The notes under the pieces are model-generated. The model worked only from the letters and a program-made list of their open reading frames with translations. It was not told where the DNA came from and did no database searches. A stretch of DNA of 64,000 nucleotides from Haloterrigena salifodinae (GTDB taxonomy: Archaea; Halobacteriota; Halobacteria; Halobacteriales; Natrialbaceae): NCBI RefSeq assembly GCF_003977755.1, contig NZ_RQWN01000002.1, forward strand, positions 124,001 through 188,000, read 5' to 3'. Position numbers and translations under genes: made by a program. Positions 38,320 through 50,117 of the stretch are shown here, one piece after another (the stretch's first letter is position 1; every line of letters starts with the position of its first letter).

Positions 38320-38381
38320 CTACTCTCACAGCGAAGCTGTTCGAACGTCACGCTCGCCACCATCGGAGGTGTCTCACGTGA
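38316..38381 (+). CDS. Upstream ORF 2 of purC, 21 residues, rich in His and Arg
   Basis: The frame starts at ATG 38316 within uORF1, 7 bases after the Shine-Dalgarno-like GAGGT (38304-38308), and ends at TGA 38379-38381, which overlaps the GTG start of purC (GTGA). Its peptide is [20 protein letters not shown] plus Thr, with three His and four Arg among the residues after Glu10. The GGAGGT for purC lies inside its own coding region. It should therefore couple translation of purC to that of the leader. No homologue is known to me. Confidence 0.55.
38365..38370 (+). promoter_or_regulatory. Shine-Dalgarno site that sets the purC start
   Basis: The perfect GGAGGT is 7 bases ahead of GTG 38378 and would be too close to the in-frame GTG at 38369, which it overlaps. 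This decides the start of purC in favour of 38378 and lies within uORF2. Confidence 0.7.
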
Positions 38382-42536: not shown

Positions 42537-43487
42537 CTACTGTTCCTTCGCGACGACGTCGCCGATGCCGTCGACCGGTCGGTCCGGCGTGACCTCGTCG
42601 ATCTCCTCGGGGAGGCCGAGCTGGTACTCGCTCCCGTTCTCCCGGACCGAGGTCCGGCCGCGGTGGACCGAGACGTCGCCGTTGAGGTGGAGTTTCACCG
42701 CCTCGAGCAAGGCGTCGGCTTCGAGGGGCTGGCCGCGGCGTTTCATCTCGTCCAGATCGGCGTCGTCGGGGACGTCGAACGCGCGCTGGGTGATGATCGG
42801 CCCCTGGTCTAAGTCGGTCGTCACGTAGTGGGCGGTGACGCCCGCGACACGAACGCCCCCCTCGAGCGCCTGCCGGTACGCTTCGGCCCCGGGGAACGCG
42901 GGCAGCAGCGAGGGATGGACGTTGATGATGCGATCCTCGTAGCGGAAGACCACGTTAGGAGAGAGGATGCGCATGTACCGCGCGAGCACGATTAGGTCGA
43001 CGTCGTACTCGGCGAGCACGTCGAGCAGTTCGTCCTCGTTTTGCTGGCCCTTCTCGTCGCCGATGTCGTGGAAGGGGACGTCGTAGTGTTCCGCGAGCGG
43101 CTGGAGGTCGTCGTGGTTGCCGATGACGACCCCGATGTCGGCGCCGAGTTCGTCGTTGGCCCACGCCTCGAAGATCGCCTCGAGACAGTGGCTCTCTTTC
43201 GTGCCGAGAACGGCGATCTGCTGGGTCTCGCGGTCGGCGGGGAATCGGACCTGAACGTCGAGTCCAAGGTCGTCGCCAAGTTCGTGGAGGTCCTCGCGGA
43301 GCGTCTCCTCGGTACAGACCATCTCGGAGGTGTCGACGGCTATATACATCCGGAAAACGCCGTCGCGAACCGCCTGATCGAGGTCCTCGATGTTGACTCC
43401 GCGCTCGAACAGGAGGCTGGTCACGTTGGCGACCAGTCCCGTATCGTCGTCTCCGATCACGGTGATTTCGGTAATGTCGGTCGTCAT
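42537..43487 (-). CDS. purU: Formyltetrahydrofolate deformylase
   Basis: The 316-residue enzyme has an N-terminal ACT domain (ITVIGDDDTGLVANVTSLLF) and a C-terminal formyltransferase-like domain with the hallmark NVHPSLLPAFPGAEAYRQAL, DLIVLARYMRILSP and VTTDLDQGPIITQ. PurU hydrolyses 10-formyl-THF to formate and THF, supplying formate to PurT or balancing one-carbon pools. It starts at ATG 43487, which has GGAGGT 7 bases ahead on the minus strand, so three residues of a longer reading are dropped. Catalytic Asn, His and Asp are present in the usual order. Confidence 0.93.
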   Translation of the reverse strand: MTTDITEITVIGDDDTGLVANVTSLLFERGVNIEDLDQAVRDGVFRMYIAVDTSEMVCTEETLREDLHELGDDLGLDVQVRFPADRETQQIAVLGTKESHCLEAIFEAWANDELGADIGVVIGNHDDLQPLAEHYDVPFHDIGDEKGQQNEDELLDVLAEYDVDLIVLARYMRILSPNVVFRYEDRIINVHPSLLPAFPGAEAYRQALEGGVRVAGVTAHYVTTDLDQGPIITQRAFDVPDDADLDEMKRRGQPLEADALLEAVKLHLNGDVSVHRGRTSVRENGSEYQLGLPEEIDEVTPDRPVDGIGDVVAKEQ

Positions 43488-43628
43488 CGGGACCACCTCC
43501 GCTCGAGCGAAATTGGATTCATCACTACGTGCTTCAGTCTACCTGTCGCCAAAAGTCCTGCTTTCCGTGGATGTGTCTGAGAACGACTGCATAATATATT
43601 GCCCATCATAGTTGTGGCTAGTTAGCAG

Positions 43629-45518: not shown

Positions 45519-46820
45519 TCAATCCGCGATCCCGAGTTCCGTCGCGTGATCGCGATCCTCGTCGGCGTCGTCCGTCTCCTCGTCGTCCGTCTCCTCGTCG
45601 TCCTCGAGTTCCTCTTCGAGCGGCTCGAACCGCGGGAATCGATCCCCGAGCGTTTCGGGGTCGGCTTCGAGATCGGCGTCGGTCGCCAGACACGACTTCA
45701 GGTCGCTGCGCAGCGACTCGCGGTCCATCTCGGTGCCGATCAGGACCAGCCGGACGTTCCGGTCGCCCCATCGGTCGTGCCAGACCGCCTCGAGTTCGGC
45801 GTCTTCGGTGAGGTGCTCGCGGCGTTCGTCTTCGGGAAGCGCGGCGACCCACGTCCCGCCGGGACCGACGCGAACCGACTGACCGGCGACGTTGAGTGTG
45901 AACGCCTCGTCGCGGCGGGTGGCGATCCAGAAGTGGCCCTTCACGCGGACGACGGTGTCGGGGAACTCGTCGAGCAGGTCGGCGAACCGTTCGGGGTGAA
46001 ACGGGCGGCGCGCCTCGAAGACGAACGAAGAGACGCCGTGTTCCTCCTCGGCCGACTCGTGGGGCTCCTGAAGTTCCCGAACCCAGCCCGCAGATCGCCT
46101 GGCCGCCTCGAAGTCGAACCGATCAGTGTCGACGACGTCGTCGGGATCAACTCGACCGTGTTCGGTACGGACGATCTCGGCGCGGGGCTGGAGCACCTCG
46201 AGCGTCGCTTCGATCTCCGCGAGCGTCTCCTCCTCGACGAGGTCGCACTTGTTCACCAGGAGGACGTCGCAGAACTCGACCTGTTCGACGACGAGATCCC
46301 CGAGGTGTTTCTCGGTGCCGTCGTCGTCGAGCAGTTCGTCGGATTTCATCGCCGTCCGGAACTGGTGGGCGTCGACGACCGTAACGGTCGTATCGAGGTG
46401 ACAGCCCTCGAGCGGTTCGATTCCGGTTTCCGCGTAGAACTCGGTGGGGTCGAGATCGGCCTGATCGAAGCCGAGCGTCAGGGTCTGAGCAACGGGTAGC
46501 GGCTCCGCAACGCCGGTCGATTCGACGACGATCCCGTCGAACTCCCGATCCGACGCGGTGAGTTCGCCGACGGCGTCGAGCAAGTCGCCCCGCAGTTCAC
46601 AGCAGATGCAACCGTTCGAGAGTTCTATCAGTTCCTCGTCCTCGTCGGCGATGTCCGAGGACTCGGCGACGAGTTCGGCGTCGATATTGACCTCGCCCAT
46701 GTCGTTAACGAGGACGGCGAGGTCGCGGTCAGTCTCTCGCAGCACGTGGTTGAGCGTCGTCGTCTTCCCAGCGCCGAGGACGCCGGAGAGCACCGTGACG
46801 GGAATCGAGCTATCGGGCAT
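45519..46820 (-). CDS. CobW/COG0523-family GTPase (zinc chaperone-like)
   Basis: The 433-residue P-loop GTPase begins IPVTVLSGVLGAGKTTTLNH (P-loop at residues 13-21) and contains the family's metal-binding C-I-C-C (Cys at 71, 73 and 74, in NGCICCEL), LVNKCDLV as the G4 motif, and a C-terminal CobW_C domain (FVFEARRPFHPERFADLLDE). The last 50 residues are extremely acidic. COG0523 proteins insert or deliver metals, often zinc under zinc limitation. It is divergent from the feoB-like unit across 89 bases that hold a shared motif. The exact metal cannot be told. Confidence 0.9.
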   Translation of the reverse strand: MPDSSIPVTVLSGVLGAGKTTTLNHVLRETDRDLAVLVNDMGEVNIDAELVAESSDIADEDEELIELSNGCICCELRGDLLDAVGELTASDREFDGIVVESTGVAEPLPVAQTLTLGFDQADLDPTEFYAETGIEPLEGCHLDTTVTVVDAHQFRTAMKSDELLDDDGTEKHLGDLVVEQVEFCDVLLVNKCDLVEEETLAEIEATLEVLQPRAEIVRTEHGRVDPDDVVDTDRFDFEAARRSAGWVRELQEPHESAEEEHGVSSFVFEARRPFHPERFADLLDEFPDTVVRVKGHFWIATRRDEAFTLNVAGQSVRVGPGGTWVAALPEDERREHLTEDAELEAVWHDRWGDRNVRLVLIGTEMDRESLRSDLKSCLATDADLEADPETLGDRFPRFEPLEEELEDDEETDDEETDDADEDRDHATELGIAD

Positions 46821-46909
46821 TCTGTTAACAATATGAACTCAATCATAATAGTAGTTATTATCTGACAAAGAAAAATTATTAAAACGGTGGCGCCATAGCC
46901 AACTCGAGC
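46821..46909. promoter_or_regulatory. Shared bidirectional promoter of cobW and feoB-like units
   Basis: This AT-rich spacer separates divergent starts. AATATGAACTCAAT (46830-46843) matches 43629-43641 apart from one extra base, and ATTATTAAAACGGTGGCG (46875-46892) matches 43642-43659 in 16 of 18 bases. Both are 35 bases from the following ATG (here 46910). A further ATTATTAT-like run lies nearer the cobW start. These are candidates for an operator and a TATA/BRE box. The regulator is unknown; no gene for it is apparent here. Confidence 0.6.
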
Positions 46910-46996
46910 ATGCGAACGTCATCGCTGTGGCCGACACAGAGGGGATCGTCCGCTGACCGAACCGCGCGACGCGACAGGGTGATCGGCGCCGAATGA
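46910..46996 (+). CDS. Leader ORF overlapping the feoB-like gene, 28 residues
   Basis: The frame reads MRTSSLWPTQRGSSADRTAR and continues RDRVIGAE, ending at TGA 46994-46996, which overlaps ATG 46993 of the transporter gene by ATGA. Its ATG stands 35 bases after the shared ATTATTAA block, exactly where the flavoprotein gene starts after its own copy, so the transcript probably begins at this ATG. GGTGATC (46978-46984), complementary to seven bases of the 16S rRNA 3' end, lies 8 bases before the transporter ATG. It looks like a translated leader coupled to the transporter. Confidence 0.58.
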   Translation: MRTSSLWPTQRGSSADRTARRDRVIGAE

Positions 46997-48720
46997 CCGA
47001 CGCGGAACCTGCTCGGCGCTACTCGGAGCCCAACCGTGCCGTCTTGATCGGCAAGGAGAGCGTCGGGAAGTCCGCCCTCGCGGCGGGACTCACCGGCGCG
47101 GCGCCGGCCGCCGAGAACGTCGACGGCGCGACGGTCTCGAACGAGGTCTACCGGGGCGGCGACCTCGAGGTGATCGACACGCCCGGGATCACTCTCGAGG
47201 CGGACACCGAGACGACCCGCGAGGCGCTGGCTGCGCTCGAGGGTGCCGAAACGGTCGTCCTCGTCGTTCCGGCGTCGGCCATCGCCCGTGACCTCGGCGA
47301 CCTCTTGCCGCTCGTCCGGGGTCGGACCGGTGCGGTGATTGTCACTCATTGGGACCGCGTCGAGGCGATCGACGAGACCGAGCGACGTCGCGCTGTCGCC
47401 GACCTCGAATCGGACCTCGGCGTTCCCGTCGTCCCGGTCGACGCGCGCTCCCTCGAGCGCGATCGGGTCGCGGCGGACGGCGGTCCCCGAGGCGGAACCA
47501 CCGGCACGGACGGCGACCGTTCGATGACCCCGGCCGACGGCCGTGCGGTTCGCGCCGCGCTGGCCCACGCGGCTGAGTTGCCCGGCGACACCGCAGTGGA
47601 AATCGACTGGGATCTCGAGCCGCCCGAACGCGTTTTCGACCGGCCGTATCTCGGTCCCGTGGCGAGCGCGCTCGTTCTTCTGCTTCCCGCAGTCGTCGCC
47701 GTCTGGTTCGCCAACGCCGTCGCGGCCGAGCTGGATCCGCGCGTCGGCGCCGCCCTCGAGCCCGCCGTTCGCTGGACGACGTCGCTTCCCGGACCGCTCG
47801 CGGCCGTGCTCGGCGGCGACTACGGCCTGCTCGCGATGGGGCCGTTCCTGTTCGTCTGGGCGCTGCCGACGATGCTGATCTTCGCGCTGTTCACGGGCGC
47901 GTACGCGGCGAGCGGGCTGACGATGCGCGTGACGACGGCGCTGCATCCGATCGTGCGCCGCGTCGGACTCACCGGCCGGGATCTCGTCCGGGTCGTGATG
48001 GGCTTCGGCTGTAACGTCCCCGCGGTCACGAGCACGCGGGCTTGTTCGGACTGCACCCGCTGTACGACGATCTCGGCCGTCTCCTTCGGCGCGGCCTGCT
48101 CCTACCAGTTCCCCGCCACGCTGGCGGTGTTCGCCGCCGTCGGGATGCCGTGGCTCGTCGGCCCCTACCTCGCCGTTCTCGTCGCGACGACGCTGCTCTA
48201 CGTCCGCCTGATCGCGCCGCCCGAAGCGCGCACGGCCGCCCTCGCCGTCGACCGACGCACCCGCCTCGAGCGGCCCCGTCCTCGTGCCATCTGGCGAGAG
48301 GCCCGCAGTTCGCTCGCGAGCTTCGTCACGACCGCGCTCCCCGTCTTCGCCGCCATCTGCGTCGTCGCCGCGCTGTTCGAGTACGTGGGCGCGCTCGAGC
48401 GCCTCGGCGCCGTCCTCGAGCCGGCGATGGCCGCCTTCGCCCTTCCAGCCGAGGCGGCGCTGCCGATCGTCCTCGCGGCGATCCGGAAGGACGGGATCGC
48501 ACTCCTGACGGCCGAGTCGGCCGCGCTCGAGGCCCTCTCGCCGGTCGAGGTGCTGGTCGCCGTCTACCTCGCCGGCGTCTTGCTGCCCTGTCTCGTCACG
48601 GCGATTACGGTCGCCCGCGAGGTTTCGGTGCGGTTCGTCGCCGGGATGCTCGCGCGACAGGCCGCCGCAGCGGTTGGATTTGCGTTCGCTATCGCCTGGA
48701 CGGGACGGCTCCTGTTCTGA
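46993..48720 (+). CDS. FeoB-like metal transporter
   Basis: The 575-residue protein has an N-terminal G domain (G1 GKESVGKS at residues 20-27; G3 DTPG near 62) and a membrane part with Gate-type repeats, the first being GFGCNVPAVTSTR (Cys 340), followed by an unusual C-S-D-C-T-R-C cluster (Cys 351, 354, 357). The G4 motif reads T-H-W-D where NKxD is normal. FeoB proteins move Fe2+, some other metals, using GTP. No FeoA gene is present. Neighbours include a CobW GTPase and two flavoproteins, so zinc or iron uptake is plausible, but the metal is not proved. Confidence 0.83.
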   Translation: MTDAEPARRYSEPNRAVLIGKESVGKSALAAGLTGAAPAAENVDGATVSNEVYRGGDLEVIDTPGITLEADTETTREALAALEGAETVVLVVPASAIARDLGDLLPLVRGRTGAVIVTHWDRVEAIDETERRRAVADLESDLGVPVVPVDARSLERDRVAADGGPRGGTTGTDGDRSMTPADGRAVRAALAHAAELPGDTAVEIDWDLEPPERVFDRPYLGPVASALVLLLPAVVAVWFANAVAAELDPRVGAALEPAVRWTTSLPGPLAAVLGGDYGLLAMGPFLFVWALPTMLIFALFTGAYAASGLTMRVTTALHPIVRRVGLTGRDLVRVVMGFGCNVPAVTSTRACSDCTRCTTISAVSFGAACSYQFPATLAVFAAVGMPWLVGPYLAVLVATTLLYVRLIAPPEARTAALAVDRRTRLERPRPRAIWREARSSLASFVTTALPVFAAICVVAALFEYVGALERLGAVLEPAMAAFALPAEAALPIVLAAIRKDGIALLTAESAALEALSPVEVLVAVYLAGVLLPCLVTAITVAREVSVRFVAGMLARQAAAAVGFAFAIAWTGRLLF

Positions 48721-48810
48721 TCGCAGTCGTCCGGTTTCGACGGTCGCTCGAGAACCAGTTGCTCGGGTATCAGCGGCGGGCGGTTCTATGAATATTGGAT
48801 GTCTCGATAG

Positions 48811-48826
48811 CATTTATTAATAATAC
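48811..48826 (+). promoter_or_regulatory. TATA-like element of the second flavoprotein gene
   Basis: CATTTATTAATAATAC lies about 34 bases before ATG 48846, similar in position to the ATTATTAA blocks upstream of the other two units, so a leaderless start at 48846 is likely. A further AATATTGG stretch at 48791-48798 (its complement is CCAATATT) resembles the CCAATATT in the 43629-43646 region. The match is shorter than that between the other two and may be chance. Confidence 0.45.
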
Positions 48827-48845: not shown

Positions 48846-50117
48846 ATGGCGTATCGCGGTTCGATGTACGACTGTGTCATCGTCGGCGGCGGCGTCCACG
48901 GCACCTACTGCTGTCAGCGGCTGCTCGAGGACACCGCCCTCGAGAGCGAGGACCTCTTGCTCGTCGATCCGCACGACCGACTACTCGCGTCGTTTCGTCG
49001 GAAGGCGGCGGCCTGCGGGATGGCGGAACTCCGATCGACGTTCGTCCAGCACGTCGGTACCGAGCCGTTCGGTCTGGAGTCGTTCGCCGAGAGCCGCGGC
49101 CGCGAGGGCGAACTCCGGCCGACGCCGGGGTATCCGCCGCGGCCGACGCTGTCGCTGTTTCTGGACTTCGCCGACTACGTGATCGAACGCAAGGGACTCG
49201 CCGACCGCCACCGGCGGGCCGCCGTCGAGTCGATTCGCCGTTCGGCCGCAGGCGACGGCTCGCTGGTCCTCGAGACGGCCGCGGGCGACGAAGACGAAAC
49301 CGGAATCGAGAACAGAACCGGCGACTCGAGCGGAGGGCAAATCCGAACGCGGACCTGCGTGCTGGCGATCGGTCACGGCGGTCGCTACCGGTATCCGCCG
49401 TGGGCCGACGGCGTTGACGCGATCACGCACGTCTGGGACGGGTTCGCTCCCGAGCGCCGCGCCGAGGAGACGGTCGTCGTCGGCGGCGGGATCACCGCGG
49501 TCCAGCTCGCGACCGCGCTGGCCGAGCGCGAGCGGGTGACGCTGTGTCCGCGCGACGGCTTCGAGGAAGCGACGATCGAGGCCGATCCGCGCTGGATCAA
49601 CTGGAACCACATCGAAAAACACCTCCATCGCCACCCGCCCGGATCGCGAGCGCGCGCCGAGACGGTCAGCGAGGCGCGCAACGACGGCACCGTTCCGCCG
49701 CGACTGCTCGAGCACCTCGAGCGGGACGACGACGGCGACCTCTCCGTCCGTCGTAGCGACGTCCGCTCCGCCCGCGAGATCGACGATCGCGTTCGGCTGC
49801 TGCTCGAGAACGGCGGCTGTTGCTCGGCCGAGCGTGCCGTTCTGGCGACGGGGTTCGCTCCCGTCTTCGAGCACCCGTTCGTCGACCGCGTCGCCGCGTC
49901 GCTCGACCTCGAGCGCGGCTACCGCGGGATGCCGATACTCGACGACGAGACGCTGGCCTGGCGCGACGCGACCGGGTCGGAGACGCCGCTGTTCGTTATG
50001 GGCGCGCTCGCGGCGGGAACCGTCGGTCCGCTGGCGGGCAACGTCGCCGGCGCGCGGCGCGCGGCCGACCGGATCGTACGCGCGATCGAGGCGCGTCGAC
50101 CGACCGTTCCGGCCTGA
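48846..50117 (+). CDS. FAD/NAD(P)-binding protein (SidA/PvdA-like monooxygenase)
   Basis: The 423-residue flavoprotein starts with an FAD site, VIVGGGVHGTYCCQRLL, and has LLVDPHDRLLASFRRKAAAC, GYPPRPTLSLFLDFADYVIE, then a second dinucleotide fold EETVVVGGGITAVQLATAL. The order of sites resembles the L-ornithine/L-lysine N-hydroxylase (SidA/IucD/PvdA) superfamily, some of which make siderophores, but no other siderophore gene is present. Residues about 155-170 hold an acidic insertion. ATG 48846 fits the promoter spacing; ATG 48864 would remove six residues. It ends the metal-related group. Confidence 0.78.
   Translation: MAYRGSMYDCVIVGGGVHGTYCCQRLLEDTALESEDLLLVDPHDRLLASFRRKAAACGMAELRSTFVQHVGTEPFGLESFAESRGREGELRPTPGYPPRPTLSLFLDFADYVIERKGLADRHRRAAVESIRRSAAGDGSLVLETAAGDEDETGIENRTGDSSGGQIRTRTCVLAIGHGGRYRYPPWADGVDAITHVWDGFAPERRAEETVVVGGGITAVQLATALAERERVTLCPRDGFEEATIEADPRWINWNHIEKHLHRHPPGSRARAETVSEARNDGTVPPRLLEHLERDDDGDLSVRRSDVRSAREIDDRVRLLLENGGCCSAERAVLATGFAPVFEHPFVDRVAASLDLERGYRGMPILDDETLAWRDATGSETPLFVMGALAAGTVGPLAGNVAGARRAADRIVRAIEARRPTVPA

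Follow-up and report, generated by a model that had tools for sequence, protein, structure and literature searches.

A predicted leaderless mini-cistron overlaps the start of a FeoB-like transporter gene in Haloterrigena salifodinae and its relatives

In the stretch of H. salifodinae DNA that we analyzed (64,000 nucleotides, hereafter the window), the gene for a FeoB-like transporter is preceded by a 28-codon open reading frame whose stop codon overlaps the start codon of the transporter. We propose, with a probability of about 0.77, that this ORF is a leaderless mini-cistron that acts as a ribosome-delivery device and feeds the FeoB-like gene by termination-reinitiation. In this model, the 5'-terminal AUG at 46910 would take the initiating ribosome, which would read 28 codons and terminate at the UGA inside the AUGA. 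The terminated ribosome would be held near the SD-like GGUGAUC and would then reinitiate at the AUG of the overlap, now translating the transporter, and the peptide encoded by the mini-cistron would be a by-product. From the sequence, we infer that the mini-cistron is translated and that reinitiation follows. By analogy with gene pairs tested in Haloferax volcanii, synthesis of the transporter would depend strictly on the mini-cistron: nine of nine overlapping pairs were strictly coupled, and the SD motif contributed to reinitiation to a degree that was gene-specific (PMC6728339). SD motifs in H. volcanii do not drive de novo initiation at leaders (PMC3986360).

Position and promoter of the mini-cistron

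The original prediction was of a 28-residue ORF that overlaps the transporter's ATG, and we confirmed this ORF at 46910-46996, with the ATGA at 46993-46996 (Table 1). Counted from its first T, a strong TATA box (TTATTAAAA) lies 34 nt ahead of the ATG of the ORF. The flavoprotein gene, which had been said to start at the same distance from its own copy of the box, begins at 48846, or 33 nt past TTTATTA (48813), so the two distances agree to within 1 nt. The GGTGATC within the ORF was also present as described, with its 8-base spacing. It had been presented as a match to the 3' end of the 16S rRNA. There is no recognizable 16S gene in the organism's own assembly, so the 3' end could not be read there; the anti-SD sequence that we used is instead general knowledge of haloarchaea.

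Table 1. Features of the window. Coordinates here and in the text are positions in the window unless another contig or locus is named.
Feature	Positions	Strand	Notes
Leaderless mini-cistron, 28 codons, MRTSSLWPTQRGSSADRTARRDRVIGAE	46910..46996	+	Predicted to open the mRNA; placement and stop overlap conserved, peptide not
TATA box TTATTAAAA of the leader-ORF/feoB transcript	46876..46884	+	A-rich, BRE-like GAAAAA just upstream; promoter PWM
SD-like GGTGATC within the mini-cistron	46978..46984	+	8 nt to the FeoB ATG
ATGA stop/start overlap	46993..46996	+	Read from the sequence: TGA of the mini-cistron at 46994-46996, ATG of the FeoB-like gene at 46993
FeoB-like transporter gene, 575 aa, downstream cistron	46993..48720	+	Pfam FeoB_N and two Gate domains
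CobW/ZigA-like GTPase gene, divergent	45519..46820	-	Pfam cobW and CobW_C; ZigA model 405 bits, below the cut-off of 600
Dyad TAATAGTAGTTATTA between the divergent promoters	46846..46860		Candidate metal-regulator operator; overlaps the expected cobW TATA region
purC mini-cistron 1, 13 codons	38278..38319	+	30 nt past TATA-like TTCTTAG (38248); promoter score 9.5
purC mini-cistron 2, 21 codons	38316..38381	+	ATGA-coupled to the first, GTGA-coupled to purC
PurU-like mini-cistron, 12 codons, MNPISLERRWSR with GGAGGTGG	43484..43522	-	ATGA-coupled to the PurU-like gene
PurU-like gene	42537..43487	-	ACT and formyltransferase domains; below the PurU equivalog cut-off

We built a promoter profile and a PWM from 193 leading genes of the same genome. 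Relative to the start codon, the profile has a TATA element at -30 to -25, A at -35/-34, and A at -11/-10, which is the signature of leaderless genes. The PWM score is 13.5 at the start of the small ORF and -6.4 at the FeoB start (the background levels are 2.6 for 95% and 6.1 for 99%). In the orthologs described below, the scores range from 9 to 14 at the small ORF versus -11 to +1.5 at the FeoB start. We rejected the idea that the FeoB start has a promoter of its own, as its score is under the 95% background level in all of the orthologs. As judged by these scores, the predicted promoter is positioned for 5'-terminal initiation on the small ORF rather than on FeoB. The spacing between the TATA box, measured from its first T, and the ATG (34 nt here and 29-35 nt in the orthologs, compared with about 30 in this genome's leaderless genes) implies a leader of about 0-5 nt, or about 4 nt in this case, which falls within what has been defined as leaderless in H. 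volcanii (PMC4983044). Transcription would thus be expected to start about 0-5 nt before 46910.

On the opposite strand, an antisense ORF of 644 aa (46879-48813) spans most of the FeoB-like gene. It probably results from the GC-rich codon usage.

Conservation of the architecture and alternative readings

We gathered orthologs by searching genome contigs and whole genomes across the family. The sample comprises 28 distinct species with this form of the feoB leader, nearly all of which have the cobW neighbor; these species are related, and counts among them are not fully independent. The original prediction had called for a check of whether the ORF is conserved. When we ran it, 27 of the 28 species, from 12 of 12 genera, proved to have the ORF, which begins 29-35 nt past the TATA box (counted from its first T) and terminates at the start of FeoB. 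Of these leader ORFs, 24 open with ATG and three with GTG, and their lengths range from 16 to 34 codons. The overlap with the FeoB start is 4 nt in 20 of the 27 and 8 or 14 nt in three; in the other four, the TGA and the ATG are adjacent. An automatic scan identified TATA-anchored ORFs that end at FeoB in 25 of the 28 leaders, versus 1.5 expected from dinucleotide-shuffled leaders (23 versus 0.63 if only ATG starts are considered). Alignment by hand added two more (loci L099 and L115), which gives the total of 27. The one clear loss is at L096, where the site reads only ATG ATC TGA; that species can therefore do without the coupled ORF.

The sequence of the ORF, by contrast with its placement, is hardly kept. 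Between genera, the DNA of the ORF is 55% identical, versus 52% for shuffled partners, and the peptides are 28% identical; among close species, the mix of synonymous and nonsynonymous changes is near neutral. Across the 27 leader ORFs, the architecture is conserved without conservation of the peptide, a pattern that would be expected if selection acts on position and frame and not on the peptide. We also scored the leaders for a possible SD motif (5 nt or more matching AGGAGGTGATCC, no farther than 18 nt from the start of FeoB). Such a motif is present in 19 of the 28 orthologs, versus 2.7 expected from shuffling.

These comparisons also bear on the other ways in which the ORF might be explained. 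Short ORFs are frequent in GC-rich DNA, and the antisense ORF at the same location shows that frames stay open easily, so the ORF might have arisen by chance and be untranslated; FeoB would then be translated from a leadered message or through a separate start of its own farther downstream. We consider this quite improbable, given the result of the shuffle test (25 of 28 versus 1.5) and the lack of a promoter at the FeoB start in every ortholog. Furthermore, haloarchaea rely mainly on a 5'-terminal AUG to initiate translation, and 72% of transcripts are leaderless in H. volcanii (PMC4983044). The retention of an in-frame ORF in nearly all of the orthologs could also mean that its product is a functional small protein, but the peptide identity between genera (28%), the DNA identity near the shuffled level, the near-neutral changes in close species, and the spread in length (16-34 codons) all argue against this. 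Because of the sequence divergence, we rejected the small protein, which we view as the least probable of the explanations.

A regulatory role is somewhat easier to imagine, although we still think it unlikely. The progress of the ribosome along the leader ORF, or its reinitiation, might sense metal or metabolic state and set the output of FeoB, either in the manner of an attenuator or by control of reinitiation. The metal-transport setting and the conserved dyad (Table 1) suggest tight regulation, and mini-cistrons recur at metabolic genes (see below). However, regulation based on the dyad would operate at transcription, and the 27 peptides, which are arginine-rich and variable, share no conserved codons or residues. 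In particular, the 27 leader ORFs have no conserved run of codons for a sensed amino acid and no TTTT run, and neither they nor the fold test gave any sign of a terminator or of alternative structures. The RNA fold of the leader is not unusual (z of +1.0, or no stronger than shuffles), and Rfam gave no match. We therefore rejected a riboswitch or an attenuator, given the lack of an Rfam match, an unusual fold, or a T-run. Returning to ribosome delivery, the mini-cistron's position is kept and its peptide sequence is not, so supplying ribosomes to the transporter gene is most likely all that it does.

Neighbors of the FeoB-like gene and similar arrangements at other genes

The FeoB-like gene is present in a single copy in the genome. 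The encoded protein has the expected domains but scores 105.8 bits against TIGR00437, below the cut-off for the FeoB equivalog (315.65), and so "FeoB-like" seems an apt label and we do not assign the transported metal. The gene is apparently frame-split or only partly matched in several relatives, G002, G004, G108, and G109 (loci L113, L114, L119, and L118, respectively); these copies are possibly pseudogenes or assembly errors. The CobW/ZigA-like gene starts at 46820 on the opposite strand from the FeoB-like gene. The dyad TAATAGTAGTTATTA is found in all 26 aligned cobW-feoB leaders, with minor variation, and its pattern (AATARNARTTATTA) has a single match in the genome. The obvious guess is that the dyad is the operator of a metal-responsive regulator.

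The FeoB-like gene of many other haloarchaea is internal and lies directly after a flavoprotein gene or a small S14-like gene, often with an overlapping stop and start. In the window's family, the FeoB-like gene has its own promoter upstream, and the mini-cistron occupies the place of the upstream gene. The mini-cistron may thus allow the gene, which has come to lead its transcript, to go on being started by reinitiation.

The S14-like gene encodes a small ribosomal protein (as classified by Pfam) in which some of the usual zinc-binding cysteines are missing (L022:2323-2508; similar in L024-L026, L029, L034, L036, and L037). It sits between the flavoprotein and FeoB-like genes and overlaps the FeoB start by 8 nt. 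This arrangement suggests a zinc-starvation operon, and the S14-like protein together with the ZigA-like GTPase would favor zinc over iron.

According to the original prediction, purC has the same design, and overlapping leader ORFs are a recurrent mode of control in this genome. The purC gene starts with a GTG at 38378 and is preceded by two mini-cistrons in tandem (Table 1); the TTCTTAG upstream of them lies within GAAACCTTCTTAG. Among relatives, 29 of 30 have a small ORF (mostly 12-18 codons) that overlaps the start of purC in an RTGA, which bears out the similarity. The tandem form is seen in this genome and in a few relatives, and most of the others have a single ORF.

The PurU-like gene is a third case within the window, which the original prediction did not include. 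All 30 family members have the overlapping mini-ORF. So do all 24 of the loci from eight other families of the order; the ORF usually has 8-13 codons there, and in most of these loci it is preceded, at about 25-30 nt, by a CTTTT-like box. Outside of the family, the peptides show no conservation. Because this case spans haloarchaeal families, existing data on start sites and ribosome profiling in H. volcanii are probably suited to it. We also observed a 22-codon mini-ORF with a strong promoter that is GTGA-coupled to a methyltransferase gene (G000:C2:527042, or L169:7042). The nearest orthologs (L231-L233) share this form, and more distant homologs do not.

Within sampled stretches that cover 464 kb of this genome, we found no general excess of promoter-anchored coupled small ORFs: 15 genes have one at the right distance from the promoter, versus 8-18 genes if the promoter is shifted. 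For the high-scoring subset, there are 10 genes versus an average of about 4 with the promoter shifted, but this excess is only suggestive. We therefore rejected the genome-wide abundance of the design. It is real and repeated, if "recurrent" is taken to mean at least three or four genes and not the whole genome. In this sense the recurrence holds, as seen for purC and the PurU-like gene, but the "control" finds no support, given the unconserved peptides and the absence of an unusual fold or a T-run.

In a broader view, haloarchaea might maintain a class of peptide-less leaderless mini-cistrons, some of them order-wide (as with the PurU-like gene), as dedicated start devices, with the efficiency of reinitiation, including at the tandem mini-cistrons of purC, setting or regulating the output of purine, one-carbon, and metal genes. 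We offer this tentatively and think it more doubtful than probable.

Most haloarchaeal genes are started without a leader, and SD motifs in leaders are not used. A conserved mini-cistron that converts a leaderless start into an SD-assisted reinitiation would be a concrete answer to how some of the genes with short leaders are started. Such mini-ORFs are missed by gene callers, and promoters and start codons may be misplaced.

Comparison with known systems

In the open-access literature that we searched, we did not find an account of short leaderless mini-cistrons with stop/start overlaps in haloarchaea. The architecture is already known from mycobacteria. Mycobacteria have leaderless coupled small ORFs, including one example in which the architecture is kept but the peptide is not (Shell et al. 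2015, PMC4633059). The feoB mini-cistron resembles these in its 5'-terminal RTG start (predicted in our case), its RTGA overlap with the annotated gene, and its unconserved peptide. Two features of a coupled small ORF are found here: there is an RTGA overlap, and the architecture but not the peptide is conserved. As for the beginning of the transcript, the position of the promoter predicts a leader of 0-5 nt. Unlike in mycobacteria, the promoter and the ribosome are archaeal. Relative to the mycobacterial case, conservation here extends across 12 genera for feoB and across nine families (its own and eight others) for the PurU-like gene. The mycobacterial ORFs are backed by start mapping and Ribo-seq, whereas the feoB mini-cistron is predicted from sequence.

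Within the same archaeal class, the reinitiation pairs of H. volcanii (Huber et al. 2019, PMC6728339) share the ATGA overlap and the intragenic SD motif; as expected for termination-reinitiation, the SD-like motif at feoB lies in the upstream cistron near the overlap. The H. volcanii pairs are existing genes in operons, whereas the upstream cistron here is a 28-codon ORF without a conserved product. Small ORFs of 15-31 aa have also been described upstream of H. volcanii genes (Babski et al. 2016, PMC4983044). That search considered only 5'-UTRs of 150-250 nt, and the leader here would be about 85 nt. The H. volcanii uORF peptides have a low isoelectric point, while the feoB mini-cistron encodes an arginine-rich peptide, and an overlap with the downstream gene was not described for them. 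None of purC, PurU, or FeoB is named among the 16 uORF genes listed in that study.

Ribosome delivery has been proposed as a function of short ORFs in a recent review (PMC12548453). In an engineered leaderless bicistronic design for Corynebacterium glutamicum, a leaderless fore-cistron with an SD motif feeds the gene of interest (PMC10367133). That design is synthetic and bacterial, and the feoB mini-cistron would be its natural counterpart.
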